From a virus: a stretch of 64,000 nt of DNA. This document shows positions 3,982 through 31,695 of this stretch, piece by piece; position 1 is the first letter of the stretch, and the number at the start of each line of letters is the position of its first letter. The notes under the pieces are model-generated. The model searched no databases. It was given only the letters and a program-made list of their open reading frames with translations, and was not told the DNA's origin. Position numbers and translations under genes: made by a program. The DNA lies in IMG/VR virus record IMGVR_UViG_3300030109_003951, positions 1 through 64,000 of that record. The stretch is one strand, 5' to 3'.

Positions 3982-4365
3982 ATGTGGCAAGAAATCCTCA
4001 AGAAGAAAAAAGATGCCTGTTATCATAAGGTAAGAAGTCGTTACAAGAAATGGCCTTCTGCTTATGCTAGTGGCGCATTAGTTCAATGTCGAAAAGTTGG
4101 TGCGGCTAATTGGGGAGAATCTGAAAAGAAATCTGAAATTGAAAAGGGTAAAATAAAAGATACTCTTTATAGATGGTTTAAAAGGAGAGGCGGTAAAGAA
4201 ACTAAAGATGGTAAAACACAATCTGGATGGATTGCTTGTGGAACATGTGATGATAAAAACGGCCCTAAACCATGTGGAAGAGAAGATGCTGATAAAGGAA
4301 GAAAAAGAAGATGTAGGCCAACTTGTGCAGCATGTAAAACTTACAAAAGGAGGAGAGGCACATGA
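3982..4365 (+). CDS. Basic cysteine-rich tagged protein
   Basis: The 127-residue product begins MWQEILKKKK, then ACYHKVRSRYKKWPSAYASG. I recall this sequence type from many marine viral genomes as a DUF-class domain without a known role. The C-terminal half has CGTC, PCGRED and CRPTCAAC, probably one or two zinc knuckles, in a highly basic context (RKRRCRP, KRRRGT). It overlaps the next gene by four bases. Its charge and cysteines suggest binding to nucleic acid inside the capsid, which is inference. Confidence 0.7.
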   Translation: MWQEILKKKKDACYHKVRSRYKKWPSAYASGALVQCRKVGAANWGESEKKSEIEKGKIKDTLYRWFKRRGGKETKDGKTQSGWIACGTCDDKNGPKPCGREDADKGRKRRCRPTCAACKTYKRRRGT

Positions 4366-4715
4366 GTTGGTTTGATGTTCTGAAAAAAAAGAAAGAAAGC
4401 CCAAGGCAGAAGGCTACAGAAAGAGCAAAAAAGAAAGGACTCAAAGGGGTAAATAAACCACAGGGATTAAAAAAAGACCCAGAAAAATCTCATCATGTTA
4501 TGGCTTTTGAAAATAATAAAGCAAAATATATGAAATTTGGCCAAAAAGGAGTAAAAACTAACCAAACTGCTGGACAAAGAGAGGCTTTCAAGGCTCGACA
4601 TGCTAAGAATATCAAGCGTGGAAAGATGTCTCGTGCTTATTGGGCGGATAAAGTAAAATGGAGTCCAAGTAAAACTAAAGAAAAGAAAAATAAAAATTGG
4701 AGAAAGGGTTCATAA
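4362..4715 (+). CDS. Small highly basic tagged protein
   Basis: The product (117 residues) starts MSWFDVLKKKK. The body is Lys/Arg-rich with a core 'KFGQKGVKTNQTAGQREAF' followed by KARHAKNIKRGKMSRAYWA, a pattern I recall from short basic proteins of other marine viruses. No enzyme motif is present. It overlaps the gene before by four bases and the gene after by one base (TAATG). A DNA-binding internal virion protein is the likeliest reading, inferred from charge and tag. Confidence 0.7.
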   Translation: MSWFDVLKKKKESPRQKATERAKKKGLKGVNKPQGLKKDPEKSHHVMAFENNKAKYMKFGQKGVKTNQTAGQREAFKARHAKNIKRGKMSRAYWADKVKWSPSKTKEKKNKNWRKGS

Positions 4716-5101
4716 TGTGGTTTGATTTGTTAAAAAGCATTAGTTATTCTGCTATTGTTCTTGATGACCCGTCCAAAAAAAAATTATTACCACTTGTTCC
4801 AAAGGGTTGGAAACCATACGCTCACCACATGACTATTAAACTCGGCCCATTAAAAGAAGATTCACAGTATAAAGTTGGTGATAAAGTATCAATGAATATT
4901 ACTGATGTTGGTATGGATGATAGAGCAATGGCTGTTAAAGTAGATGCTAAAAGAGATGACAGTAGAGGATTCCCTCATGTTACTGTTGCAACTAGTCCCG
5001 ATGGTGGAAAACCATTTCATTCTAATCAAATACCAGAAGAAAATTTTAAACCTTTTAGTGGCACCTTAACTGGGGTAGTAGAAGAAGTCCCCAACAGGTG
5101 A
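4715..5101 (+). CDS. 2H phosphoesterase-like protein with tag
   Basis: The 128-residue product starts MWFDLLKSI (ATG 4715 overlaps the previous stop; TTG 4697 would bury the tag). Two H-x-T motifs, H38-M-T40 and H88-V-T90, each in a beta-strand context, are the hallmark of the 2H phosphoesterase superfamily, which includes RNA 2',3'-cyclic phosphodiesterases and 2'-5' RNA ligase-like enzymes. Such proteins open or process cyclic phosphates at RNA ends. The protein is shorter than typical members (about 180 residues). The next two genes encode a HAD phosphatase and a CCA-adding-type enzyme, so an RNA-end-healing role is inferred. Confidence 0.65.
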   Translation: MWFDLLKSISYSAIVLDDPSKKKLLPLVPKGWKPYAHHMTIKLGPLKEDSQYKVGDKVSMNITDVGMDDRAMAVKVDAKRDDSRGFPHVTVATSPDGGKPFHSNQIPEENFKPFSGTLTGVVEEVPNR

Positions 5102-5105
5102 TATT

Positions 5106-5609
5106 ATGAGTTGGATGGACATTCTTAAAGCAATTAACAAAATTGTTATTATTGATTTTGACCAAACACTATTTTATACTCCTACTCCAGAAGAAGGTAA
5201 AAAAAAATATCAAGAAGTTACTGGTGAGGAATATCCCCACATTGGTTGGTGGAGTAAACCAGAAAGTTTAGATACAGATATTTTTGATATTCCAGTCAAT
5301 AAAGAAATACTTAGCAAGTATAGAGAGTGTGAAAGTGATTCCACTTGCATGACCGTTTTGTGTACGGGTAGAGTTCCAAAAGTAGAAAAGGAAGTTAAGG
5401 CTTTATTTAAAGAACATGGCATTAATTTTGACAGAGAATATTTTGCTAAACTGCAAACCTTGAGACATAAATTAAAAACTTTTGAAGATTTATACCGAGA
5501 ATATCCAAACGCACAAATTACTGCTTATGATGATAGAGATGACCATTTACCCGAATTCCAAAAGTGGGCGGAAGATAAAGACAATGTAGACATTGTGCAT
5601 GTGAAGTGA
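5106..5609 (+). CDS. HAD-family phosphatase with tag
   Basis: The 167-residue product begins MSWMDILKAI. HAD motifs are all visible: IIDFDQTLF (nucleophile D17, acid D19), LCTGR with T87, a lysine near RHKLK (residues 120-124), and AYDDRDDH with D142/D143. The layout resembles the HAD domains grouped as Swiss-Army-Knife RNA repair phosphatases, but this is from memory. The likely reaction is removal of a terminal phosphate from a nucleic acid or nucleotide. GGTGATATT precedes the ATG. It lies between the 2H phosphoesterase and the nucleotidyltransferase genes, and all three carry the tag. Confidence 0.75.
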   Translation: MSWMDILKAINKIVIIDFDQTLFYTPTPEEGKKKYQEVTGEEYPHIGWWSKPESLDTDIFDIPVNKEILSKYRECESDSTCMTVLCTGRVPKVEKEVKALFKEHGINFDREYFAKLQTLRHKLKTFEDLYREYPNAQITAYDDRDDHLPEFQKWAEDKDNVDIVHVK

Positions 5610-5613
5610 TATT

Positions 5614-6855
5614 ATGAGTTGGATGGATATTCTCAAAGTTTCGTTAGATATTCTCACTGATGAGTTGCGTAGAGACATCAAATCAAAAGGTGGTAAAATT
5701 TACCAGATTGGTGGTGCAGTTCGAGATGAGTTTTTAGGTAAAGTGTCTAAAGATTTAGATTTGATAATTGCAGGAATAGACATTGACGATTTGCAAAAAA
5801 TTCTAAATCAACATGGTAAGGTAAATTTAGTCGGTAAAAGTTTTGGTGTGTTGAAGTTTAATCCTTTTGGTCAAGAAGGAGAACCAGTAGATATTGTTGT
5901 TCCTAGAATAGAAGTTAGCACAGGAGAAGGTCACAAAGATTTCGAGGTCAGATTAGGTAAAGACATCACGTTAGAAGAAGAACAGTTGCGTAGAGATTTT
6001 TGGATGAATGCAATCGCCAAAGATATTGAAACTGGAGAAATTATCGACATTGGTGGAAAAGGCCAACTCGATATAAAAAATAAACAGATTTCTGTAATCA
6101 ATCCAAAAGCATTTGAGGATGACCCGTTAAGAATGTTAAGAGCAGTACAATTCGCATCTAGATTTAATTTTAAAATAGAAAACGAAACCATGAAAGAAAT
6201 AAAGAAAAACGCTGCAAAAATTAAGACGGTTTCCAATGACAGGTATCAAGAAGAGTTTAGAAAAATGTTCGAGAAGTCTAGTAAGCCAACTGTAGGTGTT
6301 AAACTTTTGATAGAAACAGGGTTAATGAATCATATATTTAGTAAAGGGGAAGTTAATCCTTTGATGGATAAATTAAGTAAAGATGCCTTTCCAACTTTTT
6401 TAGCATTATTTGGTGAAGGGTCAAGTGGCTCAGAAATACAAAGTGTAATGAAGTTGTCTAACAAAGATGCCAACATCGTTCAAGCAGTTATGGATTTCCA
6501 AAAAATAAATTTAGATGATTTAAATGTGGTTAAATTTTTATCTAAAGTCAAGGATAAGAAAGATGTTATTCGCAATATTGATGCTTTGCAAAAAGCCAAA
6601 GGACAAACAACATTAAGTGAGCAATTAAAATCAATGAAAGGAAAACCAACAAGTCTCAAAGAATTAGCAGTTACAGGTAAGGATTTGTTAGATGAGGGAA
6701 TCAGTGGAAGAAAAATTGGTGAGATTTTGAATTATTTGTTAGAATTAGCAGTCAAAACTGGTAAAAATGATAAAGAGTTTTTACTTAGCAGGGCTAAGTC
6801 GGAGTTCAATGAAGAACTATGGAAAAGCATATTAAGGAGAAATACTCGTTGGTGA
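5614..6855 (+). CDS. cca: CCA-adding / poly(A) polymerase-type nucleotidyltransferase (class II)
   Basis: The 413-residue product starts MSWMDILKVSLD and then shows the class II tRNA nucleotidyltransferase order: IGGAVRDEFLG (residues 32-42), the metal-binding DLDL (47-50), EEEQLRRDFWMNA, and DPLRMLRAVQFASRF with helical neck and body domains. This family adds CCA to tRNA 3' ends or poly(A) to RNA. The class II form is typical of bacteria and eukaryotes; archaeal hosts normally use class I, so the gene was probably acquired from elsewhere. Length is normal for the family. The tag DNA differs from that of the gene before only at synonymous or near-synonymous positions, as if selected at protein level. 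Confidence 0.85.
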   Translation: MSWMDILKVSLDILTDELRRDIKSKGGKIYQIGGAVRDEFLGKVSKDLDLIIAGIDIDDLQKILNQHGKVNLVGKSFGVLKFNPFGQEGEPVDIVVPRIEVSTGEGHKDFEVRLGKDITLEEEQLRRDFWMNAIAKDIETGEIIDIGGKGQLDIKNKQISVINPKAFEDDPLRMLRAVQFASRFNFKIENETMKEIKKNAAKIKTVSNDRYQEEFRKMFEKSSKPTVGVKLLIETGLMNHIFSKGEVNPLMDKLSKDAFPTFLALFGEGSSGSEIQSVMKLSNKDANIVQAVMDFQKINLDDLNVVKFLSKVKDKKDVIRNIDALQKAKGQTTLSEQLKSMKGKPTSLKELAVTGKDLLDEGISGRKIGEILNYLLELAVKTGKNDKEFLLSRAKSEFNEELWKSILRRNTRW

Positions 6856-6860
6856 TACAA

Positions 6861-7517
6861 ATGGTAACTAGAAGAAGATGTAAAGTCTGTCAACATGAAG
6901 ACAGGACACAAATAGAAGAGATGGTCAATTCAATGACTAAAACTTGTGATGATTTAGATATAGAATTCGATTGGGCAAGTGGTACAACAGCCCGTCACAT
7001 GAGAAACCATACTCAAGGATATGATGATGCCTCTAATCCTCAATGTGCTGTTTGTACTCATCCAGAAAGGGCTAAAATAGAAACAGACATCACAGAAGGT
7101 ACGATTCCTGCTAGTGAAGTAGCAGCACAATTGGGAACAACAGATGCTCAAATTAGAAAACATATGAGGTCACATTTACAACCTCTTGTGCAAAAATCTG
7201 CTGCAACTCAAATTGCTCGTAGAGAAATTGATGAGATAGATATGCTTAGTGCAAACTTACAAAGATTAGATGGTAAATTAGATGAGTTATTTGACATGCC
7301 TACTCACACTACGAGAGAATTAGATTCACTGACTAAACTCGCAAAAGAGATTCGTGAGTCTTTGAAATACCTTATGGAGTTCAAGGGCAAACTTATTCAC
7401 CGAAGGCAGGACACCATCATCGTAGCGCAGATGCAGATTGTCCAAGAAGTGTTGGCGCAAAATCATCCTCAAGTGTGGTTAGACGTTAAAGAAAAGATGA
7501 AGGAGAAGTTACAGTGA
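6861..7517 (+). CDS. Duplicated zinc-finger protein, candidate small terminase
   Basis: ATG 6861 follows GGTGATACAA. The 218-residue product contains two similar zinc units: RRCKVCQHEDRTQIE...HMRNH and PQCAVCTHPERAKIE...IRKHMRSH. Each ends in a helix-turn-helix-like segment (ASEVAAQLGTTDAQIRKHM). A long helical region follows (about residues 110-218). Zinc-coordinated DNA binding plus an oligomerising helix, three genes upstream of the large terminase, fits a small terminase or other DNA-recognition role; this is inference. No tag is present. Confidence 0.6.
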   Translation: MVTRRRCKVCQHEDRTQIEEMVNSMTKTCDDLDIEFDWASGTTARHMRNHTQGYDDASNPQCAVCTHPERAKIETDITEGTIPASEVAAQLGTTDAQIRKHMRSHLQPLVQKSAATQIARREIDEIDMLSANLQRLDGKLDELFDMPTHTTRELDSLTKLAKEIRESLKYLMEFKGKLIHRRQDTIIVAQMQIVQEVLAQNHPQVWLDVKEKMKEKLQ

Positions 7518-7741
7518 GTTGGAGAAGTCTGCTAAAGATTGCTATGGAAGGTTCTAGAAAAACCTTCGATAATTACGAAAGGGCTAAACGCCTTGCTCGT
7601 ACATGGTCTTTTGCAGAACCTCACGTTATCAGAGAAAAAAATGGTAAATTTACAGTCATGATGAAAAAAGACACTAAAGGTTTTCCAGAAGCAGATTTTG
7701 GCCCAGTTGTTCATGAACAAAAAGCGAGGTTTTCAAGATGA
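7514..7741 (+). CDS. Small tagged protein, GTG start
   Basis: The 75-residue product begins MSWRSLLKIA from a GTG codon that overlaps the previous stop (GTGA). The rest is basic and amphipathic and ends FGPVVHEQKARFSR. No family is recognised. It overlaps the next tagged gene by four bases. The GTG start is accepted because it positions the tag correctly. Confidence 0.65.
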   Translation: MSWRSLLKIAMEGSRKTFDNYERAKRLARTWSFAEPHVIREKNGKFTVMMKKDTKGFPEADFGPVVHEQKARFSR

Positions 7742-10871: not shown

Positions 10872-12304
10872 CAGAAATAGGAATGTTAGATTTTGAAACT
10901 AAAATGGATATGGAATTATCCAAAACATCTTTTCCTTATTTTTTTCAGAATGTATTAGGTTGGGAATTTACTCATTTCCATCAAGAGTGGCTAGAACTTA
11001 TGGAATCAACAGACCGTACTGTTATCATTTGTAGTCGTGACCACGGTAAATCTGTATTTATGCATTCATGGGTAGTTTGGAATTTATGTTTTCAACCACC
11101 ACCATTTCAAATGTTATACATTTCATCTAACCATAAACAGACTATGGTTCACATGAGAGATATTGACAAGATGTTTAATCATAAATCGTTAGCACAATTT
11201 AGACCAAGTAGAGGTTGGGCCATAGGAAACATTACACTTACTAATGGTAATTCAATTCTTGAGCGTTCAGTAGGCTCTCAGATTCGTGGTCTTCATCCTC
11301 AAGAGATAATTATTGACGACCCTTTGAAAGAGTTCTCTATGTCTGCAATTAACAAAGTTACTGATTGGTTTTTCGGAGATATGATACCAACACTTCACCA
11401 CACTGCTAGTCTTAGAATGATTGGCACTCCTTTTTCTTACACTGATATTTTTACACAGTTAGAAGAGAACGAAGCCTACACTGTTAGAAAATATCCTTGT
11501 TTCAACCAACTCAATGAACCACTTTGGCCAGAGAGATGGGATTATGATGCCCTAATGCAAAGAAAGACAGAAGTTGGCTCATTAAAATTCACAAGAGAAT
11601 ATATGTGTATTCCTATCTCAACTGGAACATCACTGTTCAATGTAGAACACGTTCAACAATGTATTAGTAAAGAAGACATTCTTAGAATGAGAAATAGAGA
11701 AGGTTACAAATATTTTGTAGGTGTTGACCCTGCTATATCAACAGATGGTGACTACAATGTTATTGTCGTATTAGAAGTTGATGAAGAAAAAAATAAACGA
11801 GTGGTGTTTGTAGATAGACAAAAGAATGTTCAGTTTAGGGAAAACATAAACAAACTAAAATTAGTTGGTCAATTATTTCAACCAGAAGTAATCTTATTTG
11901 AAACTAATACTTTTGCTAAATCATTTACACAAGAATTGCGTAATGAAACCGATTTGAATGTTAGAGATTTCAATACAACTAGAAAAAAGAAACAAGAGAT
12001 AATTCTTAACTTACAAATGAATATAGAGAATCACAAAATAGTTTTACCTAAAGGAAATGAAGAGTCCAAAAGAATGACTGATTTAATTGTAGATGAACTT
12101 AGTATGTTCAGTATATTAGATAATGGTAGGTTTGCGGGAGTTGGGGCGCATGATGATTTAGTGATGGGATTGGCCCTCGCTAACTCTGCAACCCACACTT
12201 TGAACGAATCTTTTGTTTTATTAGATGATATTGATATATTTGATTCTCCCGTCACTACACAGGTGGGACAAATGGGAGGTGGTGTATTTGGCCTTAATAT
12301 CTAA
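10868..12304 (+). CDS. terL: Terminase large subunit
   Basis: The 478-residue protein is the DNA-packaging motor with ATPase and nuclease domains. A Walker A-like CSRDHGKS follows a conserved-type start (HFHQEWLEL); Walker B is EIIIDDPLKE; a coupling segment RMIGTPFSYTD follows. The RNase H-fold nuclease shows FVGVDPAIS, LFETNTF and HDDLVMGLALA. The length is typical. It binds the portal (encoded two genes downstream) and translocates DNA into the prohead. It overlaps the gene before by four bases and is followed by a LAGLIDADG-like gene placed between terminase and portal. Confidence 0.95.
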   Translation: MTEIGMLDFETKMDMELSKTSFPYFFQNVLGWEFTHFHQEWLELMESTDRTVIICSRDHGKSVFMHSWVVWNLCFQPPPFQMLYISSNHKQTMVHMRDIDKMFNHKSLAQFRPSRGWAIGNITLTNGNSILERSVGSQIRGLHPQEIIIDDPLKEFSMSAINKVTDWFFGDMIPTLHHTASLRMIGTPFSYTDIFTQLEENEAYTVRKYPCFNQLNEPLWPERWDYDALMQRKTEVGSLKFTREYMCIPISTGTSLFNVEHVQQCISKEDILRMRNREGYKYFVGVDPAISTDGDYNVIVVLEVDEEKNKRVVFVDRQKNVQFRENINKLKLVGQLFQPEVILFETNTFAKSFTQELRNETDLNVRDFNTTRKKKQEIILNLQMNIENHKIVLPKGNEESKRMTDLIVDELSMFSILDNGRFAGVGAHDDLVMGLALANSATHTLNESFVLLDDIDIFDSPVTTQVGQMGGGVFGLNI

Positions 12305-12311
12305 GCAACCG

Positions 12312-13628
12312 ATGAGTTCTGAAGAGTTACGACAAGGTGCTGTAGCGTTAGATGAACTTGCTAGTGCCACACAAGATTTTGAGGAGCAATATTTGAAATG
12401 GATTTCTTCTCAACCCCTTGATGATGAATACAATGTTATCAAAAATGCTGCTAAAGAATTCAATCTTAATTTATCTCAAGCAAGAGAACAAGTTGAAAAG
12501 TTTCCTTCTGAATATAAGATAGAAGGGGAAGGGATAGTTGATGTGGTAAAAAGATTGAGAGATTATAGAACTACACTTAAAGGTGACATTAAAAAAGATT
12601 TTACTAAATCTATTGTTAATGTTATTAATGGATATTCTTCACATTTAGACGATTGTATAAAATCTATTTATTGGTTGAGTGATTATCAAAAACCACTTAA
12701 GTCAATGTCTTTTAAAGAAAGCGATTTAAGAAAAATATACGAAATAAAAGATTATTCTACAAGAGCGCAACTAGTAGATATTTTATGTAAATATTGGGAA
12801 GCAGATTTAGAACGTAAAAGTTTACAAGGCACAGAATATTTCAAATCAGAACATTCACTAACCAAATGTAAAAAAGAATTTAGGGGTTTTATGAAATCAT
12901 TACCTAATAGGTATGATTGGACTGATAAATTGAATACCCACATTTTGAAATGTGTTTCTGATGACCAAGGAATTACTTGTAGGTCAATCATGGATAAGAT
13001 GGATTCGTCTTTACAAAAAAGGAGCAGCCCACAAATTATTGCAAAACATGCTAAGAAGATTGGCGTAACAATAGTTGAAGAACAATATTACAAATTAAAT
13101 GACACATTCAAAAAAGACATCAGTGCATATACTGCGGCTTTCATAGATTCAGATGGTTATATCACTTTAGATAAAAATCTAAATCCTAGAGTTGGTCTTA
13201 TTGCTACTGGTGATAGGGGCAAAGCATTCATGATAGAAATGCACAAAGCATTAGGTAATGGTAAATTACATCTTGACCAAAAGTCACCACAAAATACTAG
13301 AGCAGTAAACAGACTTAATTTTTATTCTCAAGATGATGTCCATAAAGTGTTAACTCAATGTCGCCCACATTTTAGAATGAAAGGGCCACAAGCAGATTTA
13401 TTATTAGAAATAGTTAGAATTAAAAAATATCATAAAAAACAAGATTGGGCTAAAGACCGTATGCAAGAAATATACAAATTAATGAAATGGTATAATCATT
13501 CAGATAACAAAAGTTATGATTGGTTAAAATATAATGTTGATATTTTTGCTATTGATAAATTAGAAGGTAATTGCAAAATGAATCTGATGGATGAATTAGA
13601 TTCAATTAGTAAAGGAGAGGAAGAATAA
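12312..13628 (+). CDS. LAGLIDADG-like endonuclease domain protein
   Basis: ATG 12312 gives 438 residues; earlier in-frame codons lie inside the terminase gene. The C-terminal part carries YTAAFIDSDGYITL (about residue 273), GKAFMIEMHKALGNGK and HFRMKGPQADLLLEIVR, the pattern of a single LAGLIDADG homing-endonuclease domain. The acidic residue of the first helix is present (D in FIDSDG). The N-terminal 250 residues are helical and unrecognised. There are no intein splice residues, so it is a free-standing protein. It may be a homing endonuclease lodged between terminase and portal, or a domesticated DNA-binding packaging factor. Confidence 0.7.
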   Translation: MSSEELRQGAVALDELASATQDFEEQYLKWISSQPLDDEYNVIKNAAKEFNLNLSQAREQVEKFPSEYKIEGEGIVDVVKRLRDYRTTLKGDIKKDFTKSIVNVINGYSSHLDDCIKSIYWLSDYQKPLKSMSFKESDLRKIYEIKDYSTRAQLVDILCKYWEADLERKSLQGTEYFKSEHSLTKCKKEFRGFMKSLPNRYDWTDKLNTHILKCVSDDQGITCRSIMDKMDSSLQKRSSPQIIAKHAKKIGVTIVEEQYYKLNDTFKKDISAYTAAFIDSDGYITLDKNLNPRVGLIATGDRGKAFMIEMHKALGNGKLHLDQKSPQNTRAVNRLNFYSQDDVHKVLTQCRPHFRMKGPQADLLLEIVRIKKYHKKQDWAKDRMQEIYKLMKWYNHSDNKSYDWLKYNVDIFAIDKLEGNCKMNLMDELDSISKGEEE

Positions 13629-15229
13629 TGGCAGAAGGAAATATATTTAGTAGGTTGTTTAGAAAAAGAACACCTATACCGTCAGATAGAAAAGTTTTCA
13701 ATATTGGAATACAAGAAAGAGACAACTCTTTTTTCTTGTCTATACCATTATTGTATCATATTGCAAATTCTTCTGTAATTTGTAGAACTTGTACTACTCA
13801 ATTAAAAAATGAAGTATTTAGGAGAGGTTTTACTTTTGCTAAAAAATTCACTATGAAGTGTAGACAGTGTGATAAAGAATTTGAACAACAAGTAGGAGAA
13901 TGTGCTAAATGTGGTTCTATGGAGTTTGATGTTCCAGACGAAGAACAATTGAAATATGCTAAGAAATTGTTAACAGGTTATGTCAATGGTGCAAATCAAA
14001 TGTTTGTTGATGTGCTAAGAGAGTTAGAAGATGACTTAAATATCATAGATGATGCATATATTGTTTTAGTCAAAGAGTATTTTTGTGATGCTAAAGGAAA
14101 TATCAAACTACATAAGATAAAAGAAGTCTTTAGAGGCGACCCTGCATCTATGACTATCTATGCAGATGAAGTTGGTGAAAGAGGACAAAAAGGATTTATT
14201 GATATTCAAAATAGAGATTTTATTTCTGAAAATGCATATGATACTCATCCCGAATCTGGTAATGTTTTACAACCAGTGCATTACGTTAATAGGGCTACTG
14301 GGGAAGAAGAATATTTCATTGAAGGTGAGGTTTTACATTTTAGTAAATATGCCCCTTCGAGATTATATGGTTCAAGTCCAGTTATGACATTGTTTAGCCA
14401 TTTGACTACATTGATAGCAATGGAAAATTATGTCAACGCATCTTATACTAAATCTAGAATGCCTAGAGGTATTCTCGCAGTTCAAACTAGAAACATGGAT
14501 TCCATGAGGCAGTTTTGGAGAAGTGTCAAAGAAAAGATGGAAAGTGACCCACACTTTATCCCAGTCATGGGAATTGAAGCAGAAGGTAGAGGTGCTGTGG
14601 AATGGGTCAAATTTATGGACAGTCTAAAAGAAATGGATTATGTTGCAGTTAAAGAAGATTTAAGAGATAGGGTTGCTGCTTTCTATGGGGTTAGTAAAAT
14701 ATTCATGGCTGACAATACTGCTAGTGGTGGATTAAATAATGAAGGTATGCAAATTCTTGTTACTAATCGTGCAGTAGAAATGGCACAGAATGTTTACAAT
14801 CATTATGTGTTCCCTTGGTTAATGGAAGAGTTCGGGGTTACTGATTGGGAATTGGTGTTGCCACCGTCAGAAGAAGAAGATGAGATTGCCTCTTTAAGAA
14901 AAAGAGAAATTGAAATCGGTCTTGCTTCACAAATGCAAGGTTTAGGGTTTGAAGTTGATTTAGATGATGAGAACAATTTTGTTTACAGTAAACCTCCACC
15001 AGCACCAGAAATGAAGATGGAAGATGAGGTGATGTTAGGTGATACTGCTATGGGTGGGCCTCCTATGGAAGAAGTTCCTATGGAGGAACAAGTTGAAGAA
15101 GTTGAAGAAACTCCGACAGATACACCCGATGTCCGTATGAGCGTAGGGCCACCACAAAGATTCAGTGGTTTACCAGAAGAAGCAGCGAACAATAATGTCG
15201 ATAGAAGAACAGAGAGGCGAGTAGGATGA
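13628..15229 (+). CDS. Portal protein with internal zinc ribbon
   Basis: The 533-residue product matches phage portal proteins: an N-terminal basic segment, FSKYAPSRLYGSSPVMTLF, RMPRGILAVQ and the region RVAAFYGVSKIFMADNT. The portal forms the dodecameric DNA entry ring at one capsid vertex. Unusually, residues 52-95 hold three CxxC pairs (C52/C55, C78/C81, C92/C95); the last two form a typical zinc ribbon. The C-terminus is acidic and Pro/Met-rich and probably disordered. It overlaps the next, tagged gene by four bases. Confidence 0.85.
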   Translation: MAEGNIFSRLFRKRTPIPSDRKVFNIGIQERDNSFFLSIPLLYHIANSSVICRTCTTQLKNEVFRRGFTFAKKFTMKCRQCDKEFEQQVGECAKCGSMEFDVPDEEQLKYAKKLLTGYVNGANQMFVDVLRELEDDLNIIDDAYIVLVKEYFCDAKGNIKLHKIKEVFRGDPASMTIYADEVGERGQKGFIDIQNRDFISENAYDTHPESGNVLQPVHYVNRATGEEEYFIEGEVLHFSKYAPSRLYGSSPVMTLFSHLTTLIAMENYVNASYTKSRMPRGILAVQTRNMDSMRQFWRSVKEKMESDPHFIPVMGIEAEGRGAVEWVKFMDSLKEMDYVAVKEDLRDRVAAFYGVSKIFMADNTASGGLNNEGMQILVTNRAVEMAQNVYNHYVFPWLMEEFGVTDWELVLPPSEEEDEIASLRKREIEIGLASQMQGLGFEVDLDDENNFVYSKPPPAPEMKMEDEVMLGDTAMGGPPMEEVPMEEQVEEVEETPTDTPDVRMSVGPPQRFSGLPEEAANNNVDRRTERRVG

Positions 15230-15621
15230 GTTGGCGAAATATATTAAAACAAGATGATAAAGACGATATTGAAAATAAGTTAATTAGGTTATTAGATAGT
15301 TGGCTTGATAGGAATGCTAATTTTGAAGATTTACAATATATGGCCCAAAGACCAGTTGATATTGATAATAATGAAGATTTAGTTGCTGATGTCGAATTTG
15401 AGAATAATTCTGAGCGAGATTTAGATGATGAACAAGCATTTGAAGAAGGTGAAGGTTTTTTTATTATTCAAATTAGAACAGATGGGAATGAGCAAAGTCG
15501 TCAAGGAAACCCATACAAAATAGCAAGATATAATTTTTTACATGATGAAGGGATAGTAGATATAGAGCCAGTATCAATTGGTTTTATGCCCATTGAATAT
15601 GCAAGGAGGTTAGTGGAATGA
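15226..15621 (+). CDS. Acidic tagged protein after portal
   Basis: The 131-residue product begins MSWRNILKQDDKDD. The body is strongly acidic (ENNSERDLDDEQAFEEGEG) and then changes to a more hydrophobic, strand-like C-terminal part ending PIEYARRLVE. No family is recognised. It shares ATGA overlaps with the portal gene and the following gene. Given the tag and the position between portal and protease, a head-internal role is likely, but this is inference. Confidence 0.6.
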   Translation: MSWRNILKQDDKDDIENKLIRLLDSWLDRNANFEDLQYMAQRPVDIDNNEDLVADVEFENNSERDLDDEQAFEEGEGFFIIQIRTDGNEQSRQGNPYKIARYNFLHDEGIVDIEPVSIGFMPIEYARRLVE

Positions 15622-15824
15622 CAACAAGAGAAGAAGTAATAAAATTGAAAAAAGAATTAGCAAGAAAACAGGCTGCGTTAGCACATAGAGATAGAAGAGT
15701 AGAAGTACAAAGAGATTTTACTCCTAGTCAACCTAAAGCACTTAAAGAAAGAAAAATGCCTAACTCAGTGCCTAATGTGATACAGTATAAGAAAACTCCC
15801 AAAAGAACAGAAAACAAGTGGTAA
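15618..15824 (+). CDS. Small basic coiled-coil protein
   Basis: The 68-residue product (MTTREEVIKLKKELARKQ) starts with a charged helix likely to form a short coiled coil and continues with a basic, Pro-containing tail. No tag and no known domain. It overlaps the gene before by four bases and ends just before the GTG start of the next gene. It may be a minor head or scaffold component; the evidence is only position. Confidence 0.5.
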   Translation: MTTREEVIKLKKELARKQAALAHRDRRVEVQRDFTPSQPKALKERKMPNSVPNVIQYKKTPKRTENKW

Positions 15825-15826
15825 AC

Positions 15827-16189
15827 GTGAATTGGCAATTAATACTTAAGGCTCCGCTTGAAAAAGCACTTAATCCTAAACTAGCATCTTTACCAGATGA
15901 GCCTAGAAAAAGATTAAAGAAAACACTTCAAGCAGCAGAGCCTTCTGAGTATTTTGGTCAAGATTATACTAGACTTGGGGAACTTATAGATTTAATTCAA
16001 GAAATGGATTTCACTAAAGAAGATAGTGAGTTAGATGAAAAGATAAAGTCAATCAGTGAACAAAACATAGATATGGTGGCTACTGCTGCGAGGTTGCGTA
16101 AGACTTATGAAACATTGTACTTACAGGTTAGAAAAATAGTATATCCAGATGCCAGTGAAGGAAGTTTAAGAGAGGAGGAAGAAGTATGA
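15827..16189 (+). CDS. Tagged helical protein, GTG start
   Basis: GTG 15827 gives MNWQLILKAP, a tag match; the in-frame GTG at 15818 would add three residues in front and overlap the previous gene. The product has 120 residues, mostly helical and charged (ESELDEK-type runs near residues 60-85), ending in an acidic LREEEEV. No family recognised. Overlaps the next gene by four bases. Confidence 0.6.
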   Translation: MNWQLILKAPLEKALNPKLASLPDEPRKRLKKTLQAAEPSEYFGQDYTRLGELIDLIQEMDFTKEDSELDEKIKSISEQNIDMVATAARLRKTYETLYLQVRKIVYPDASEGSLREEEEV

Positions 16190-16470
16190 CATGGGAAGAA
16201 ATAGTAAAGGTAAAATTTCAAGGGCCACCACAAGACCCAAGTGGAATAAGACAATCTCCTCATTATAGAATAGGGGCTTTTACACAAACAATGAAAACTG
16301 CACTGGAGAATTTGAAAAATTTAGTAAAAGAACATCCAGATATGAAAAACAATTACCATATTAAAGATACTATAACACAACTTGAACGTGGATTAAAGAT
16401 GCAAGATGAGATTGATAGGTATAAGACGTATAATAGAAAAGATTACCCCGAAGAACATTTTAAGAGATGA
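16186..16470 (+). CDS. Small tagged protein
   Basis: The 94-residue product begins MTWEEIVKVKF. A proline/glutamine patch follows (GPPQDPSGIRQSP), then two amphipathic helices. No motif is recognised. It continues the series of small tagged genes between portal and protease and overlaps its upstream neighbour by four bases. Confidence 0.6.
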   Translation: MTWEEIVKVKFQGPPQDPSGIRQSPHYRIGAFTQTMKTALENLKNLVKEHPDMKNNYHIKDTITQLERGLKMQDEIDRYKTYNRKDYPEEHFKR

Positions 16471-17075: not shown

Positions 17076-19538
17076 GTGCCTCAATTACTTTTCCAAAAAG
17101 AAAGTGACCCTGCTAGACTAGTTCGCACTTTATTTGAAAAGGTCAGAATTGGTTACTTACTAGGAAAAGATGACCCTAAACATTATGCCGAGCGTTGGAC
17201 ATCTGTTATAGATGAACTAAAAGACTTACATGACGATACCAGCAATTTCGCAGCATTAATTAAAAGAACATTGAATGAAAAAGATTTGTTCTCAGACGAG
17301 GTTAAAAATCCAGAGTCACACGAAGCGGGTAGAATTTTTGCAGCAATTAAGAAACTGCGCTATTCTAAAATTACTAAAGACCCATTTATCGAAGAATTCG
17401 GGGAAGAAGTAGTTGATGCTCTTTTATCAGATGAACATGTTTATGTCAAATTTTTGCACTGGGCATTAAGAAACGATGATGATGTTTTAGAGTCAGAACT
17501 ATATGAGAATCAAGATTTAGACCCCGATGAAATCACTGGTGGTTTTGCAGGACTAGATTTAAAAGAAAAAGAAATCATTCCTTTTATCATAGAACATTAT
17601 GGTGACGATAAAGATTTATCAAGATTAGAATCTAAATATAAAGGGGCAATTAGTACTCTAAATAGAATTATAGACAATAAGGAACAAATGAAAAATCTAG
17701 TAGATTTAGATTTACAAAAAGCAGAAAAGTCATTATCTTTTATTGTTCCTAACAAACCAATGTATCGTATTTTTGATATTGAAGATTTAAAAGAATTAAG
17801 AGGTTTCACTGGTAAATGGGTAGTTCAAGAAAAGTATGATGGGATGAGAATACAAATCCACAAGTCAGAAGGTAAGGTCAAAATATATTCTTTTAATAAA
17901 AAAGACATCACAGATAAATGTCCAGAACAAGTTAAAATGATAAGTGAGAAAAAATTTGCAGATTGTATTTTAGATGCAGAATTGATGTTATTTGATGGTG
18001 ACGAACCATTACATCGAGCAGAAGTTGTTGCTAGAATTTTCAAAGATAAAAAATCAGATACAATTTTGAGAGCGCATGTATTTGACATCATGCAATATGA
18101 TGATAGAGATTTAACAGATTCACCATTAGAAGAAAGAATAAAAATATTATTCCAAAACTTTAGTCAACATTCAGATATTGAATTAGCATTCCCATCTAAA
18201 AAAGATACAAGGATTGCAGATTCAATGAAAGACATAGAAGTATATTCTAAAGAGATATTTAAAATTCCAACAGCAGAGGGTGTAGTGTTAAAAGATTTAA
18301 CCTCAACTTATTTCTTAGCCAATAGGAAAAATCCTAAATGGGTTAAATGGAAAAAGTTTGTCGACATTGATGTAGTAGTATTAGATATGAAGAAAACCAA
18401 ATCAGATTTATTTTCATATACTATTGGTGTGGGGCCAGTAGAAGAAGGTGTGGAAGTAAATGGTGTAAAATATCTAAGTGTTGGCAAAGCACTTAACACT
18501 AAAATTAGAGTAGACATTGGGGATATTATTAGAGTCAAGGTTGATGAAGTCAGACAAACACCAGATGGTTTTGCTTTACAATCTGCTAAAGTTATAGAAG
18601 TTCCCGAAGTTGAACAACCAGACAAAGTAGTAACTTTAGAATTTTTAGCAAAAGATACTAAAAAATCTTTGAACTATGATATTGAAGCATTTACTAAAGG
18701 ATATGAAATAACTGACCATGTTCATGGTCATGCTACCATTATTGCTAAATCAGATATGGATGGCTTTACAGTATATGGTTTTCAAGAAGATAACCTCATG
18801 GCTAAAAACGCTTTAGCAAATATGGAAGTTTGGAGAGAACAATTAGGTAAAGCACTTGATGAAGATAGGTCAGTTTTAGAAACAGCAATCATAAATGAAA
18901 TTAAAAGAACTAATAAACCTATGGATATTAATTCAATTGTAAGGTTTTTCAATAGAGATAAAGAACTAAAGAGAATATACGAAAGTGTATTCAACAGTAA
19001 TAAAAATGAATTGTTTAGAAGTCTTAAGAATAAATCAAAAGACCACCTCACATATGAAAAACAAAAATTTAATTTAAACATGGAAGTAGGAGAACCACTA
19101 AGAAAAGAATATTCTACTCCAGAAGAATATCGTAAAGGCACATTCAAAGTTTACATTACTGAAAATGAAAATATTCAAATTGTTATGGATTTAAATGATG
19201 AAAAGATTTCATGGATTATTAAGTTAGATAGTGAAGATGACATATTCAACTTATTCGGCAAATCTAAAAAATTTATGGCGCAAGTTGCAACAACAATGAC
19301 CAAAGGAAAGGTTATTGATTCTGGAGAAGTAGAATTAGGAGTTCAAAGACATGGTTATCATGAATACATGTTAAATGGAAATAAATTTGATACTCGTTTA
19401 CATTTCAGAGTTGTTCCTATTGATGATAAAGAGAACTGGGTAGCATTCACTAGTGTTAAACCAGAGAAGGTTGATTCTAATACTGATGATGGCATATGGG
19501 ATATACGGCAAGATAAGTATAATAAATTAACCCTTTAA
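17076..19538 (+). CDS. Large ATP-dependent DNA ligase with extra terminal domains
   Basis: From a GTG start, the 820-residue product carries a full adenylation core: catalytic EKYDGMR with K253, LDAELMLFDGD, HVFDIMQYD, EGVVLKDL and WVKWKKF, then an OB-type domain. A 220-residue helical N-terminal region precedes it. The C-terminal 290 residues include VQRHGYHEYM and FDTRLHFRVV (near residues 760-785), a weak resemblance to the 3'-phosphoesterase domain of LigD-type proteins. A second, ordinary ligase is encoded at 62175-63605, so this one, placed between portal and protease, is probably not the replication ligase. It may seal nicks in packaged or injected DNA. It has no tag, and ligase identity is much surer than the C-terminal call. 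Confidence 0.85.
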   Translation: MPQLLFQKESDPARLVRTLFEKVRIGYLLGKDDPKHYAERWTSVIDELKDLHDDTSNFAALIKRTLNEKDLFSDEVKNPESHEAGRIFAAIKKLRYSKITKDPFIEEFGEEVVDALLSDEHVYVKFLHWALRNDDDVLESELYENQDLDPDEITGGFAGLDLKEKEIIPFIIEHYGDDKDLSRLESKYKGAISTLNRIIDNKEQMKNLVDLDLQKAEKSLSFIVPNKPMYRIFDIEDLKELRGFTGKWVVQEKYDGMRIQIHKSEGKVKIYSFNKKDITDKCPEQVKMISEKKFADCILDAELMLFDGDEPLHRAEVVARIFKDKKSDTILRAHVFDIMQYDDRDLTDSPLEERIKILFQNFSQHSDIELAFPSKKDTRIADSMKDIEVYSKEIFKIPTAEGVVLKDLTSTYFLANRKNPKWVKWKKFVDIDVVVLDMKKTKSDLFSYTIGVGPVEEGVEVNGVKYLSVGKALNTKIRVDIGDIIRVKVDEVRQTPDGFALQSAKVIEVPEVEQPDKVVTLEFLAKDTKKSLNYDIEAFTKGYEITDHVHGHATIIAKSDMDGFTVYGFQEDNLMAKNALANMEVWREQLGKALDEDRSVLETAIINEIKRTNKPMDINSIVRFFNRDKELKRIYESVFNSNKNELFRSLKNKSKDHLTYEKQKFNLNMEVGEPLRKEYSTPEEYRKGTFKVYITENENIQIVMDLNDEKISWIIKLDSEDDIFNLFGKSKKFMAQVATTMTKGKVIDSGEVELGVQRHGYHEYMLNGNKFDTRLHFRVVPIDDKENWVAFTSVKPEKVDSNTDDGIWDIRQDKYNKLTL

Positions 19539-19575: not shown

Positions 19576-20823
19576 GTGTTAGGAGGAGTTGTAACAACAA
19601 AATCAAATACGTTTGATATACTGAAGTCACAAGATGATTTAATAATTGCAGGATATGCTTCAATAGAAATGGTAGACAAACAAAATGATTTAATTACACT
19701 CAAAGCGTTGGAGGAAGCAGTACAAAAATTCATGGATAAAAATGAATATAGAAACGTAATGACTAACCATTCAAATGTTCAAGTAGGAGAAGTAGTAAAT
19801 AAATATAGAGATTCAAAAGGACAGATATATAAAACACAAGTAGATGATGTAGGATTTTTTGTAGTAATAAAATTAAGGGATGATATAGAAAAAGCAAAGG
19901 AAGTATCAAGAGACATAAGGCAGGGAACATTAAGGAGTTTTAGTATCGGGGGACAAGCACTAGAAAAAAGAACTGTTAGAGATAAAGAAGTAGGGGAATA
20001 CAACGAAATCAGCAAATTAGAATTACATGAGGTTACAATCTGTGAAAAAGGAATAAATCCAGAAGCAAAATTCGATATACTGAAACAAGATAAAAATAAG
20101 GTGAAAAAAATGAATGAATTAGAAAAAGCACTTGGCGAATTAAATGAACTAGTTAAGAACATGAATTTGTCCAAGGAAGAAGAAGAAGAAAAAGGACATG
20201 GTAGAGACATGGAAATGGGTCACGAAGAAGGCCATGAAGAAGAAAAAATGGGCTATGGTCATGATGAAAAGGCTGATGAAGAAGATGATGTAGAAGACAT
20301 GTCTTACAAGGCTGATGAAGAAGATGACGAAAAGAAAGCAGAAAAAGATGAGGATGATGAAAAGAAAGCATTAGAACTCAACACTTATTCTGAGGCTGGA
20401 GAAGTTGTCTTTGAGAATGGTAGAACAAAAGACCATCCTCAAGAATCAGAATTTAAGATGCAACCTCCTACACTAGATTTGAGTGCTGCTAACTTAGAAA
20501 AAGCATATGAAGCATTTAGAGCAGAAAAATTAGAAGCAATGGCTTATGAGAATCTATCCAAAACATTTGGTGACAGATTTAACTCTGAATTAAAAGCACA
20601 AGATGAAGCAATTGCAAAAGCAAACTACAATGCTAAAGCAGAAGTAGCAGAACTAAGAGAGCAATTTGCATCATTGAAGAAATCATTAACAGAAGAAAAA
20701 CAACAAGTAATTGCAAAACAAGAACAAGTTGTAAGTAATTTAAATATTCCAAGTACTGACGATATTGTAAAAATGAGTTGGGATGAATTACATCAAGTAA
20801 TTGATAATTTGGAGAACAGGTGA
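19576..20823 (+). CDS. Prohead protease fused to scaffold
   Basis: The 415-residue product has an N-terminal S78-type prohead protease domain: SIEMVDKQNDLI, MTNHSNVQVGEV (candidate catalytic His) and GTLRSFSIGG (candidate Ser), ending with ELHEVTICEKGINP. The C-terminal part is a strongly acidic, E/D/H-rich stretch (residues 195-270) followed by long helices, like an assembly scaffold. Two FDILK strings, residues 13-17 and 166-170, bracket the protease domain and match the tag core on other virion proteins, so they are candidate self-cleavage sites. GTG 19576 is the only usual start; AGGAGG lies just after it, so start recognition may be leaderless. It directly precedes the capsid gene. Confidence 0.85.
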   Translation: MLGGVVTTKSNTFDILKSQDDLIIAGYASIEMVDKQNDLITLKALEEAVQKFMDKNEYRNVMTNHSNVQVGEVVNKYRDSKGQIYKTQVDDVGFFVVIKLRDDIEKAKEVSRDIRQGTLRSFSIGGQALEKRTVRDKEVGEYNEISKLELHEVTICEKGINPEAKFDILKQDKNKVKKMNELEKALGELNELVKNMNLSKEEEEEKGHGRDMEMGHEEGHEEEKMGYGHDEKADEEDDVEDMSYKADEEDDEKKAEKDEDDEKKALELNTYSEAGEVVFENGRTKDHPQESEFKMQPPTLDLSAANLEKAYEAFRAEKLEAMAYENLSKTFGDRFNSELKAQDEAIAKANYNAKAEVAELREQFASLKKSLTEEKQQVIAKQEQVVSNLNIPSTDDIVKMSWDELHQVIDNLENR

Positions 20824-20828
20824 TTAAA

Positions 20829-22262
20829 ATGGTAAGAACAATAAACACAATAAGAGATTTAGAAGCGGCTACATACGGCTTCCAAAACAACTCAATTCTA
20901 AAAGGTACTGGAGTAGTTGGTGCAGCAGGAATTGGTGTAACTGGACACGATGCAGCAATAGGAATAAATGGAACAGCAGCCACAGCAATGACTGATTTAT
21001 ACAATGTAGTATATGGTCAAAAAGTTTGGTCAATGTTGAACCAAGAAATAAATCCACTAGCAATTCTTCCAAAAAGACCGTACACAACAAGCGGTTGGAG
21101 AATTCTAAAAGCAAGACCATTTGGTGGAGCAGATGCGAAATTCGGTTTAGCACATGAATTTTCTGACAACTCTACTGGTGATGCTTTAACAGCAGGTAGA
21201 AGTGGAACACAAGTTGACAGGCCAATGCCAGATGAAATTGGTGGTGTTAGAGAAAATGCAGGAATAGGTGGAGCAGCAGCAGACGGTGATATTACACCAG
21301 TTGCACCAGAATACACAAAACTATTCATGACTCCTAAAACAATTGCTCACATGTTTGAATTCAGTGAATTAGCATCTGAAATGGCAAAGATTGATGATGG
21401 TATCGGTGACTTAAGAGCATTGATTCGTGAAGATATGGGTAAATTCCATGCAGAAGTTCAATCAAAAATGTTAGTAATGCCTCTAGAAGCATATGACTTA
21501 GATGCTGGATTAGCAGCAGGTAGTTCCGCTAGTGGTGCTGCTGCATTTGCAGATATGGAAAGAAACTTAACATCATTAATGAAAATTGTTTCTTCCTCAG
21601 CAGAAGTTCATGAAATGGGTGCGCAAAGTATAGTAGCAGCAAATGATGGTGCTAACAGTGTAGACACAGTTAAACTATATGGTAACACAGATAGAGCAGC
21701 AGACACAGCATTAGGTTCCTCAGTAGGATTTATGGATGCAGAAGTTAACATTGGAGATGGATATGCAGCAGCAGAACAAAGAGTATTAACACTTTCAATC
21801 ATGAATAGTTTAATCCAAAGTTTAAGAACAAATGGAGCAAGTCCAAAAGTTATTATGACTGGATATGATACAATTCAAGCAATTGCTGACTTATTACAAA
21901 GCCAAGAAAGATTCATGGATGCTAAACACATTGTACCAACACATAATGGTGTAAAAGGTGTTGCTGGTGCAGAAGTTGGATTCAGAGTTGCAACATACTA
22001 TGACATCCCACTAATTCCAGCAAAAGACATGCCAAGCACATGCCACTTATCATTATCAACAGGATTAAGTGATATGTTATTCTTAGACACTGACCACTTA
22101 TGGTACTCCGTACTAAAACCAACTCAATACTTTGAAGATGGTATTAATCATGGAAACCCATTCGGCATTGGTAAACTAGGGAATCAAGGAATGTACCGAA
22201 CTATTGGTGAAGTAGGCTGTTCTTTCTTCAAAGGACAAGGTAAAATCACCAACCTAAAGTAA
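20829..22262 (+). CDS. Major capsid protein (HK97 fold)
   Basis: ATG 20829 follows GGTGATTAAA. The 477-residue product follows the protease-scaffold gene, as in HK97-type viruses. Features include a short N-terminal arm (MVRTINTIRDLEAATYGF), NPLAILPKRPYTTSGWRIL, and a C-terminal domain with FFKGQGKITNLK at the end. It is Ala/Gly-rich and nearly Cys-free. N-terminal residues 22-25 are SILK, followed by GTGVVGAAGIG; the xILK core matches the protease's own candidate sites, so cleavage after K25 is plausible. Identification rests on position, length and composition rather than a signature motif. Confidence 0.85.
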   Translation: MVRTINTIRDLEAATYGFQNNSILKGTGVVGAAGIGVTGHDAAIGINGTAATAMTDLYNVVYGQKVWSMLNQEINPLAILPKRPYTTSGWRILKARPFGGADAKFGLAHEFSDNSTGDALTAGRSGTQVDRPMPDEIGGVRENAGIGGAAADGDITPVAPEYTKLFMTPKTIAHMFEFSELASEMAKIDDGIGDLRALIREDMGKFHAEVQSKMLVMPLEAYDLDAGLAAGSSASGAAAFADMERNLTSLMKIVSSSAEVHEMGAQSIVAANDGANSVDTVKLYGNTDRAADTALGSSVGFMDAEVNIGDGYAAAEQRVLTLSIMNSLIQSLRTNGASPKVIMTGYDTIQAIADLLQSQERFMDAKHIVPTHNGVKGVAGAEVGFRVATYYDIPLIPAKDMPSTCHLSLSTGLSDMLFLDTDHLWYSVLKPTQYFEDGINHGNPFGIGKLGNQGMYRTIGEVGCSFFKGQGKITNLK

Positions 22263-22974: not shown

Positions 22975-23268
22975 TTGTCTTGGGAAGATATACTCAAAGT
23001 AAGAGTTCCAGTAGGCAGAGCGCAAGGCTCTGATGAACGACCAGATATTACAATGGATGTATCTGAAAAAGTATTAGCGGGTGCTGATATTTTATATGCT
23101 GTTGAGAAAGCAAACTTGAGAGATAAAACTGGTAAAGGTATAGGAGAAACACTTTTAGAAATGTTAGATTTTACATCTAAAGAAATGACTTTAGCCAATG
23201 CATTATATCGTGATAAATCAGTACCAAGTCTTTATATTGACTATAAATTTCAAGAAATGTATGAATGA
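22975..23268 (+). CDS. Tagged head-region protein, TTG start
   Basis: TTG 22975 begins MSWEDILKVR, a perfect tag, showing that the codon is used as a start although no in-frame ATG or GTG is near. The 97-residue product continues with PVGRAQGSDERPDI and helices ending FQEMYE. It starts two bases after the previous stop. It is the only tagged gene downstream of the capsid gene besides a variant at 30910. Confidence 0.65.
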   Translation: MSWEDILKVRVPVGRAQGSDERPDITMDVSEKVLAGADILYAVEKANLRDKTGKGIGETLLEMLDFTSKEMTLANALYRDKSVPSLYIDYKFQEMYE

Positions 23269-30776: not shown

Positions 30777-30917
30777 ATGGAAAAAACAATTAATTTAAAA
30801 TCTCATCGTAGAGAAGCAATTCCTAAATTAAGAGCATTAGAGGTTAAGAAAAACCCTCCTAAGCCAAAGAAACAACGCAAACCTAGAAAGAAAAAAGTGG
30901 TAGAGGAAGATGAGTGA
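30777..30917 (+). CDS. 46-residue highly basic protein
   Basis: ATG 30777 opens 46 codons: MEKTINLKSHRREAIP, then a Lys/Pro/Arg-rich half (NPPKPKKQRKPRKKKV). It overlaps the next gene by eight bases. The extreme positive charge suggests DNA or acidic-partner binding. No homologue is recognised. Confidence 0.55.
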   Translation: MEKTINLKSHRREAIPKLRALEVKKNPPKPKKQRKPRKKKVVEEDE

Positions 30918-31695
30918 ATGGCAATCTGTGTTGAAATCTACTTCTATTGAAAAACAAACTTCTAATGAAGTAATGGATAAATTCGTAGAAAATTTAGGAA
31001 AAGTTATAGCAGATTACCAAAAAGAACAACAAACCAATCAATCCACAACAGCAACACAACCAACTCAACCAACTCAAGCACCCTCGGTTGCGGGTAGAGC
31101 AGATACTATAACTGTTGGAGGAAATAAACCAGCAAGTGGTTATAAAACTTATACTTCTGAAGAAATCCAAGCATTAAGAGGAGCAGGAGTTAGCACTAGC
31201 GAAATAAAACGATTAGATACTGCTAGAGCAAAAAATATGCAAAAACCACCATCATTAGCCGCACCAGCAGCAGGAGTGGCACCAACAAGCGTTGCGGGTA
31301 ATATAGCACCACAAAAACCACTTTCAGCAAGAACAACACCTCCAACATATACTGCTTCGCAAGCAAATATAGATAGAGCGATGCGCAGATTACCACCTTG
31401 GGCAGAGAAACTTAGAGAACGTCAAGCAACTGCTCAAGTGACTCAACAAGAAGGTCAACCTGCTACTTCTCAAGTGAGGCGGGACTCTTATGATAGAGGA
31501 GAAGACGACTCTAGAACAAGAGGACTTGGGCCAGCAAAGCCAGTTGGTGGTCAAGGTAGAGTTAAACGTACTCCAACACAAAAAGATAAAACTATGGCTC
31601 AACAAGGATTATCTCTAGCCCAGCAACGTGAGTTAGAAGTTGATACACTTCTAGGAGAAACACTACAGGATAGGAGAGAAAGACAACGAAAATAA
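30910..31695 (+). CDS. Pro/Gln/Thr-rich protein with tag variant
   Basis: The 261-residue product begins MSEWQSVLKSTS, a variant of the tag (W-x-x-V-L-K). It then becomes low complexity: QQTNQSTTATQPTQPTQAP, Ala/Pro-rich and Arg/Gln-rich stretches, with little predicted fold. It lies between tail tube and tail chaperone. It could be a flexible tail-associated or internal protein; no family is recognised. Confidence 0.55.
   Translation: MSEWQSVLKSTSIEKQTSNEVMDKFVENLGKVIADYQKEQQTNQSTTATQPTQPTQAPSVAGRADTITVGGNKPASGYKTYTSEEIQALRGAGVSTSEIKRLDTARAKNMQKPPSLAAPAAGVAPTSVAGNIAPQKPLSARTTPPTYTASQANIDRAMRRLPPWAEKLRERQATAQVTQQEGQPATSQVRRDSYDRGEDDSRTRGLGPAKPVGGQGRVKRTPTQKDKTMAQQGLSLAQQRELEVDTLLGETLQDRRERQRK

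Follow-up and report, generated by a model that had tools for sequence, protein, structure and literature searches.

What would a virus do with three neighbouring genes for mending RNA ends, each of which opens with the same short peptide? The question is posed by a 64,000-nucleotide stretch of DNA (hereafter the window), the first 64 kb of the 86.6 kb virus record IMGVR_UViG_3300030109_003951, where a 2H phosphoesterase, a HAD phosphatase and a CCA-type tRNA nucleotidyltransferase are encoded side by side behind versions of an N-terminal tag, MSWxDILK. The answer favoured here, with moderate confidence, is that the three genes constitute an RNA 3′-end repair kit that is packed into the capsid, and that unrelated viruses have come to package such kits convergently. 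All of the evidence is computational, and the records compared are fragments.

The window matches magroviruses in its S78 prohead protease, portal, terminase, HK97-type capsid, PolB and clamp loader genes (profile and sequence matches), and further magrovirus-type genes in the record encode a Cpn60-type (GroEL-type) chaperonin and an HMG-CoA lyase-like protein. Magroviruses (order Magrovirales, Aoguangviridae) are characterized by HK97-type capsid genes, PolB, a clamp loader, a GroEL-type chaperonin, an HMG-CoA lyase-like gene and a size of ~90 kb (PMC10768690). By comparison with that description the record is magrovirus-like (Magrovirales), an assignment made by gene content rather than by a species-level tree; the assignment of the host to the archaea is likewise based on gene content, together with the magrovirus literature. 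A search for tRNA genes in the record found none. An initial annotation had placed three adjacent genes at 4715-6855, all starting with the tag, and all three open reading frames (ORFs) were confirmed there, on the same strand (+) with gaps of 4 bases between neighbours:

4715-5101, + strand: 2H phosphoesterase, 128 residues, predicted opener of 2′,3′-cyclic phosphate RNA ends (Pfam, motifs, fold)
4715-4735, + strand: tag of the 2H protein, MWFDLLK (N-terminus)
5106-5609, + strand: HAD phosphatase, 167 residues, Swiss-army-knife RNA repair family 1, predicted remover of the terminal phosphate (Pfam, fold)
5106-5129, + strand: tag of the HAD protein, MSWMDILK (N-terminus)
5614-6855, + strand: class II CCA-type tRNA nucleotidyltransferase, 413 residues (Pfam, phrog, PDB, motifs)
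5614-5637, + strand: tag of the CCA enzyme, MSWMDILK (N-terminus)

The 2H protein belongs by its Pfam match to tRNA_lig_CPD, the fungal tRNA-ligase cyclic phosphodiesterase (CPD) family (1e-8, 35.4 bits against a cut-off of 23). The HxT motifs that had been read at residues 38-40 and 88-90 are present as HMT and HVT, and H38, T40, H88 and T90 are invariant across the 13 sequences of the 2H alignment. Its structure model has a predicted local distance difference test (pLDDT) score of 90.8, with values below 50 solely at residues 1-5, inside the tag. The best matches listed in a fold search of the PDB were nearly all CNPases (probability 1.00, template modelling (TM) score 0.6-0.7), bearing out the 2H fold on which the initial annotation had depended; the E-values are modest, 0.003 at best, because the folds have diverged, and a viral ns2 phosphodiesterase appeared at rank 48. 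On this model the product of 4715-5101 is a 2H phosphoesterase with a CNPase fold, and hydrolysis of cyclic phosphates is its predicted activity.

The HAD protein scores above the curated cut-off for HAD_SAK_1 (2e-12, 47.5 bits against 25.6), and the motifs attributed to it were recovered as DFDQT at residues 17-21, TGR at 87-89 and DDRDD at 142-146. The HAD catalytic residues D17, D19, T87, K122 and D143 are invariant in 8 relatives. No match to the PDB was obtained by sequence, and fold comparison was used instead; for the structure model (pLDDT 93.2) the best match was the Pnkp1/Rnl/Hen1 RNA repair complex (E 3.5e-4, TM 0.6). Relatives in other phages have no tag, and homology to them starts at residue 9-10.

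The third protein was confirmed as a class II CCA-adding-type nucleotidyltransferase, with matches to PolyA_pol (7e-16), PolyA_pol_RNAbd (9e-15) and the tRNA nucleotidyltransferase family phrog_2244 (4e-59); its best full-length matches in the PDB are CCA-adding enzymes (2e-21). The head-domain motifs GGxVRD, DxD, RRDFxxNA and EDxxR, which are invariant columns in CCA enzyme alignments, are intact (GGAVRD at residue 33, DLD at 47, RRDFWMNA at 126 and EDDPLR at 168), and specificity for CCA rather than poly(A) is likely. An archaeal origin of the enzyme was rejected, since the best 80 cellular matches all have bacterial titles and the nearest relatives are from phages.

The tag, of the general form M(S/T)WxDILK, opens 16 of the 74 non-overlapping ORFs in the window, compared with a mean of 0.10 and a maximum of 2 in 1000 shuffles. 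It follows none of 423 internal methionines and opens none of 756 genes in non-magrovirus control phage loci, and by these three controls a chance origin was rejected. All 16 tagged ORFs are on the + strand in the structural half, and none lies in the other 22.6 kb of the record. Besides the three repair genes they are:

21-317, 318-647, 640-942 and 939-1613, + strand: tagged ORFs upstream
1861-2331, + strand: tagged ORF, MSWQDILK
3982-4365, + strand: tagged ORF, MWQEILK, with a phrog_727 match (8e-19)
4362-4715, + strand: tagged ORF, MSWFDVLK, directly upstream of the three repair genes
7514-7741, + strand: tagged ORF, MSWRSLLK
15226-15621, 15818-16189 and 16186-16470, + strand: tagged ORFs after the portal gene
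22975-23268, + strand: tagged ORF, MSWEDILK, after the capsid genes
30910-31695, + strand: tagged ORF, MSEWQSVLK

Across the fetched loci 802 unique tagged proteins fall into 398 sequence clusters; these tag counts, and any serine-codon figures, are biased, in that the scans reach close relatives first and the tag scan needed AGY serine codons. The W and K of the tag are invariant in diverse tagged proteins, an invariance that is partly circular because the proteins were chosen by a tag regular expression. Synonymous codons within the tag vary, suggesting that selection acts on the peptide; a purely nucleotide-level signal was rejected, as the leucine and isoleucine codons differ. Few of 131 diverse tagged proteins match Pfam. 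Apart from the three repair families and a few weak matches, the families represented are S-adenosylmethionine lyase-like, GNAT, PAP2, pentapeptide-repeat and putative metallopeptidase, each by single tagged proteins that are possible further injected counter-defence proteins. Two batches of 10 tagged proteins yielded no members of the S-adenosylmethionine lyase-like, GNAT, PAP2 and DUF6782 groups.

A prohead protease is expected to cut beside its own protease domain and near the N-terminus of the capsid protein, and peptides resembling the tag are found at both places in the window:

19576-20823, + strand: prohead protease (S78, HK97 type) with a C-terminal scaffold-like region, predicted tag-processing enzyme (Pfam)
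19612-19626, + strand: tag-like site FDILK, followed by S, just before the protease domain (motif)
20071-20085, + strand: tag-like site FDILK just after the protease domain (motif)
20773-20790, + strand: tag-like peptide MSWDEL at the C-terminus of the scaffold-like region (motif)
20820-22262, + strand: major capsid protein, HK97 fold (24% identity to the major capsid protein of the haloarchaeal virus HCTV-1, E 1e-19)
20895-20903, + strand: predicted maturation site ILK, cut before G, capsid residues 26-28 (motif)

The protease matches Peptidase_S78 (7e-11) and TIGR01543 (5e-11, below the curated cut-off). Just before its protease domain, F-x-I-[LIV]-K followed by S occurs in all 81 prohead protease relatives, and FDILK just after the domain occurs in 78 of them. 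The end of the scaffold-like region has a similar peptide in 73 of the 81, most often MSWGDIH, which suggests that the tag may mimic scaffold docking. Exactly one [LIV][LIM]K site is present at about residue 25-30 in each of 76 capsid protein relatives. The sequence of HK97 gp5 reads FNK|SLG at 103/104, with lysine at P1 as in the tag; the HK97 capsid protein is cut between lysine 103 and serine 104, and the HK97 protease is of the same family. Since the tag resembles these conserved protease and capsid sites, it is probably a capsid-targeting leader that is cleaved by the protease. Several lines of support, all indirect, point to virion delivery of the tagged enzymes.

Another of these lines comes from phages in which the same enzyme has a different leader. 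Outside the magroviruses, the closest relatives of the CCA enzyme (50-58% identity) are on marine contigs, one of them a 117 kb contig with T4 gp23 (3e-141) and an S77 protease; some contigs are called T4-like because they have gp23, others because of their leaders and clade. In place of the tag, the CCA proteins of this clade start with MIKFSSFLTE, MFKFSTFFNE, MKPFRKFLNEEA, MRKFKNYIIES and similar peptides, and T4 ipII and ipIII start with MKTYQEFIAEA. A peptide of the latter type, the capsid-targeting sequence (CTS), loads T4 heads, and T4 CTS peptides load diverse anti-defence proteins (PMC3012670). The tag shares with the T4 CTS the property of being a short N-terminal peptide common to otherwise unrelated proteins, and MSWxDILK has no similarity to MKTYQEFIAEA. 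In contig L018 a run of ORFs begins with MKSFKQYITEA, and several CCA proteins of the T4-like clade have a fused C-terminal 2H-like domain with two HxT/S motifs. A third leader, MKLLLENWRKYLNE, opens 7-10 ORFs each in L251, L252 and L265, including their 2H proteins, and L252 contains gp23 and an S77 protease. The same leader was also seen in L266 and L271; across these five loci it occurs on up to 10 ORFs per 12 kb. At L014:5373-6569 a protein with a T4-type leader combines a zeta-toxin/kinase-like P-loop domain and a nucleotidase-type HAD domain in one chain, an arrangement that recalls polynucleotide kinase-phosphatase.

Leaders also appear to have been exchanged on otherwise conserved cargo. 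One cargo gene is common to the magrovirus contig L232 and the T4-like contig L324 (68% identity overall), and the first block of identity, PRIPRKKGQ, directly follows MWFDLLKA in one contig and MKRFKELREG in the other. The gene (L232:5558-5863, L233:1335-1640 and L324:4639-4959) encodes a short basic protein with a weak phrog_727 match, and its leader is swapped at the tag boundary. A cargo gene of a T4-like contig thus matches phrog_727 as the window ORF at 3982 does (8e-19). In the tree, the magrovirus CCA clade (support 100/96) lies within a 15-row clade (100/100) that includes the T4-like phages; from this position and the change of leader, the CCA enzyme appears to have been transferred between viruses of bacteria and of archaea, its leader being replaced.

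The initial annotation had asked whether the three genes co-occur in related viruses. IMG/VR was searched with the 2H alignment alone, and HAD and CCA genes were then sought by profile in the fetched loci. Within 4 kb of the 2H domain, a CCA-type enzyme was found in 36 of 79 viral loci, often in the same polypeptide, a HAD gene in 32 and both in 27, and 204 of the 244 other fetched loci (mostly magrovirus capsid and tag loci) had none of the three. The 2H gene lies a few bases 5′ of the CCA gene in the magrovirus loci L002, L005 and L006, and overlaps the start region of the CCA gene in L003. The expectation of co-occurrence was therefore upheld: the three genes co-occur or are fused across unrelated viruses, where 2H, HAD and CCA belong together; within the magroviruses only the 2H-CCA pair recurs. 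On the predicted fold, the co-occurrence and the grouping of the third protein with CCA-adding enzymes, the interpretation in the initial annotation is supported.

From the computed enzyme families, motifs, folds, tag, shared site-like motifs, co-occurrence and leader swapping we infer the following course of packaging, cleavage, ejection, substrate and timing. The tag would draw each enzyme into the prohead at assembly, perhaps as a mimic of the similar peptide that closes the scaffold region. Next, the S78 prohead protease would cut after the tag lysine, as predicted for its own precursor and for the capsid protein, freeing the enzyme inside the head, and the enzymes would enter the host together with the DNA. 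There the 2H enzyme would open 2′,3′-cyclic phosphates on cut RNA, the HAD enzyme would strip the remaining phosphate, and the nucleotidyltransferase would rebuild the CCA end, most likely of host tRNA that a defence nuclease has cut at the 3′ end or close to it. In principle, a cyclic phosphodiesterase, a phosphatase and a CCA enzyme are all that is needed to mend the damaged 3′ end of a tRNA; to reseal a cut anticodon, a ligase would be required. Attacks on this part of tRNA are documented: the CCA end is cut in Cas12a3 immunity (PMC12851939) and pyrophosphorylated by toxSAS toxins (PMC11559606). The wider proposition, that unrelated archaeal and bacterial tailed viruses repeatedly made RNA-end repair enzymes into virion cargo by grafting on lineage-specific, protease-cleaved capsid-entry peptides, and that MSWxDILK marks a large, fast-changing injected arsenal, we regard as evenly balanced.

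Several observations weigh against packaged 3′-end repair. The capsid site [IL]LK is short, and in the rest of the capsid protein 35% of 55-residue windows contain a match. Ascertainment accounts in part for the serine-codon bias of the tag, one collection scan having required AGY. No CCA enzyme is nearby in 43 of the 79 2H-domain loci, and HAD was not found in the other fetched magrovirus loci with the 2H-CCA pair, so that among magroviruses it was seen in the window only. The sister contigs L232 and L233 have the 2H gene (product 95% identical to that of the window) without HAD or CCA, and a different tagged gene occupies their place; with this exchange and the patchy presence of HAD, the region behaves as an exchangeable cargo island. 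The CCA enzyme falls under the NCBIfam equivalog cut-offs for CCA nucleotidyltransferase (best 128 against 290 bits), so membership is claimed for the class II superfamily only. Finally, CNPase and fungal tRNA-ligase CPD domains leave a 2′-phosphate, which makes it uncertain whether the phosphate that HAD must remove is 2′ or 3′.

Other uses of the same enzymes were considered. Repair might take place in the infected cell after late expression, with the tag serving as an assembly-site or partner-binding peptide and nothing delivered to the next host. The tagged genes sit among the head genes, so co-expression with them is likely; however, repair confined to the late stage would arrive after the early attacks of host defences, three probable sites of protease processing have residues in common with the tag, and the T4-like phage orthologues begin with leaders of the kind that loads T4 heads, so that this explanation appears unlikely. 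A packaged kit could instead mend anticodon-loop breaks, with 2H and HAD healing the ends, the CCA enzyme restoring nucleotides and a ligase sealing, for which T4 provides a precedent and which the CTS-tagged kinase-HAD protein alongside CCA in a T4-like contig would suit. A candidate ligase is available: an 820-residue ATP-dependent ligase is encoded in the structural block at 17076-19538, between portal and protease, and similar proteins occur in other magroviruses. Its match to RNA_ligase is weak and below the cut-off (5e-5), however, and it is untagged and much closer to DNA ligases (4e-32); apart from this long DNA-ligase-type protein, no RNA_ligase-like match was found in the searched magroviruses. 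No 5′ kinase was recognised among the three genes, RtcB was not found in the record, and a CCA-type enzyme suits the acceptor end. With RtcB not found and the candidate ligase of DNA type, the gene set is more in keeping with repair of the 3′ CCA end than with T4-style re-ligation of the anticodon, and we judge anticodon repair to be distinctly improbable.

Two further explanations assign the activity to a single member of the set. As 2H-fold enzymes act on cyclic nucleotides and 2-5A, and a viral ns2 phosphodiesterase is among the fold matches, albeit at rank 48, the 2H protein might destroy cyclic nucleotide immune signals, like the 2H-like phage protein Acb1, its neighbours being incidental. 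Against this, the nearest folds are CNPases, Pfam assigns the protein to the tRNA-ligase CPD family, and 2H recurs beside the CCA enzyme or in fusion with it, leaving signal destruction very improbable. The nucleotidyltransferase might, with equally slight probability, modify host RNA by tailing or by adding residues to tRNA and so take over translation, with no repair involved. The head domain is common to class II CCA enzymes and poly(A) polymerases, both of which match in the profile search, and toxin nucleotidyltransferases can extend tRNA ends (PMC10435456); the partners of the enzyme are end-healing enzymes, however, and its full-length solved matches are CCA-adding enzymes.

Packaged 3′-end repair, the explanation preferred here, has partial parallels in known systems. 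The T4 internal proteins IPI, IPII and IPIII are likewise diverse proteins that share only a short N-terminal prohead-loading peptide, and known members counter host restriction (PMC3012670). They differ in that MSWxDILK is unrelated to their peptide, the predicted protease is of the S78 HK97 type and not S77, the magrovirus infects archaea, and the predicted function of the cargo is RNA repair. In phage P1, an N-terminal signal of DarB suffices to send a foreign protein to the capsid, and the cargo is anti-restriction (PMC9024508); that signal comprises the first 30 residues of one very large protein, unlike a short tag shared by a whole family of cargo. T4 Pnkp/Rnl1 also heals 2′,3′-cyclic phosphate ends against host defence, but re-seals anticodon nicks by means of a kinase and a ligase, neither of which is among the three genes. 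The initial annotation had regarded a prepackaged kit in an archaeal virus as probably new. Such enzymes were already known in jumbo phages, which have the same families (2H, Swiss-army-knife HAD and CCA-adding enzyme), proposed to reverse attacks on tRNA; section 3.4.9 of that account discusses them alongside RNA ligases and describes no 2H-HAD-CCA cassette or packaging (PMC7824862). In the present record the enzymes are tagged and RtcB was not found. Neither the tag nor RNA-end repair genes are mentioned in the magrovirus literature compared (PMC10768690).

Elsewhere in the window, a 467-residue ORF at 12225-13628 overlaps the end of the terminase gene and contains a stretch, AYTAAFIDSDGYITLD, that by eye resembles LAGLIDADG homing endonucleases. 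An HMG-CoA lyase-like gene was identified at L031:11480-12439 (HMGL-like, 2e-22), and in L002, L003 and L005 the 2H gene has a similar gene a short distance upstream.

If packaged repair is correct, the tag would allow the proteins injected by an uncultured group of archaeal viruses, most of them without a match to any known family, to be listed from sequence alone, and RNA repair would join the known kinds of injected counter-defence. It would also point to undiscovered immunity that attacks tRNA ends in Poseidoniales and in the hosts of marine T4-like phages. On the wider proposition set out above, some of the most abundant archaeal viruses of the sea would inject an arsenal marked by MSWxDILK, and marine hosts would have a defence that attacks the 3′ end of tRNA.

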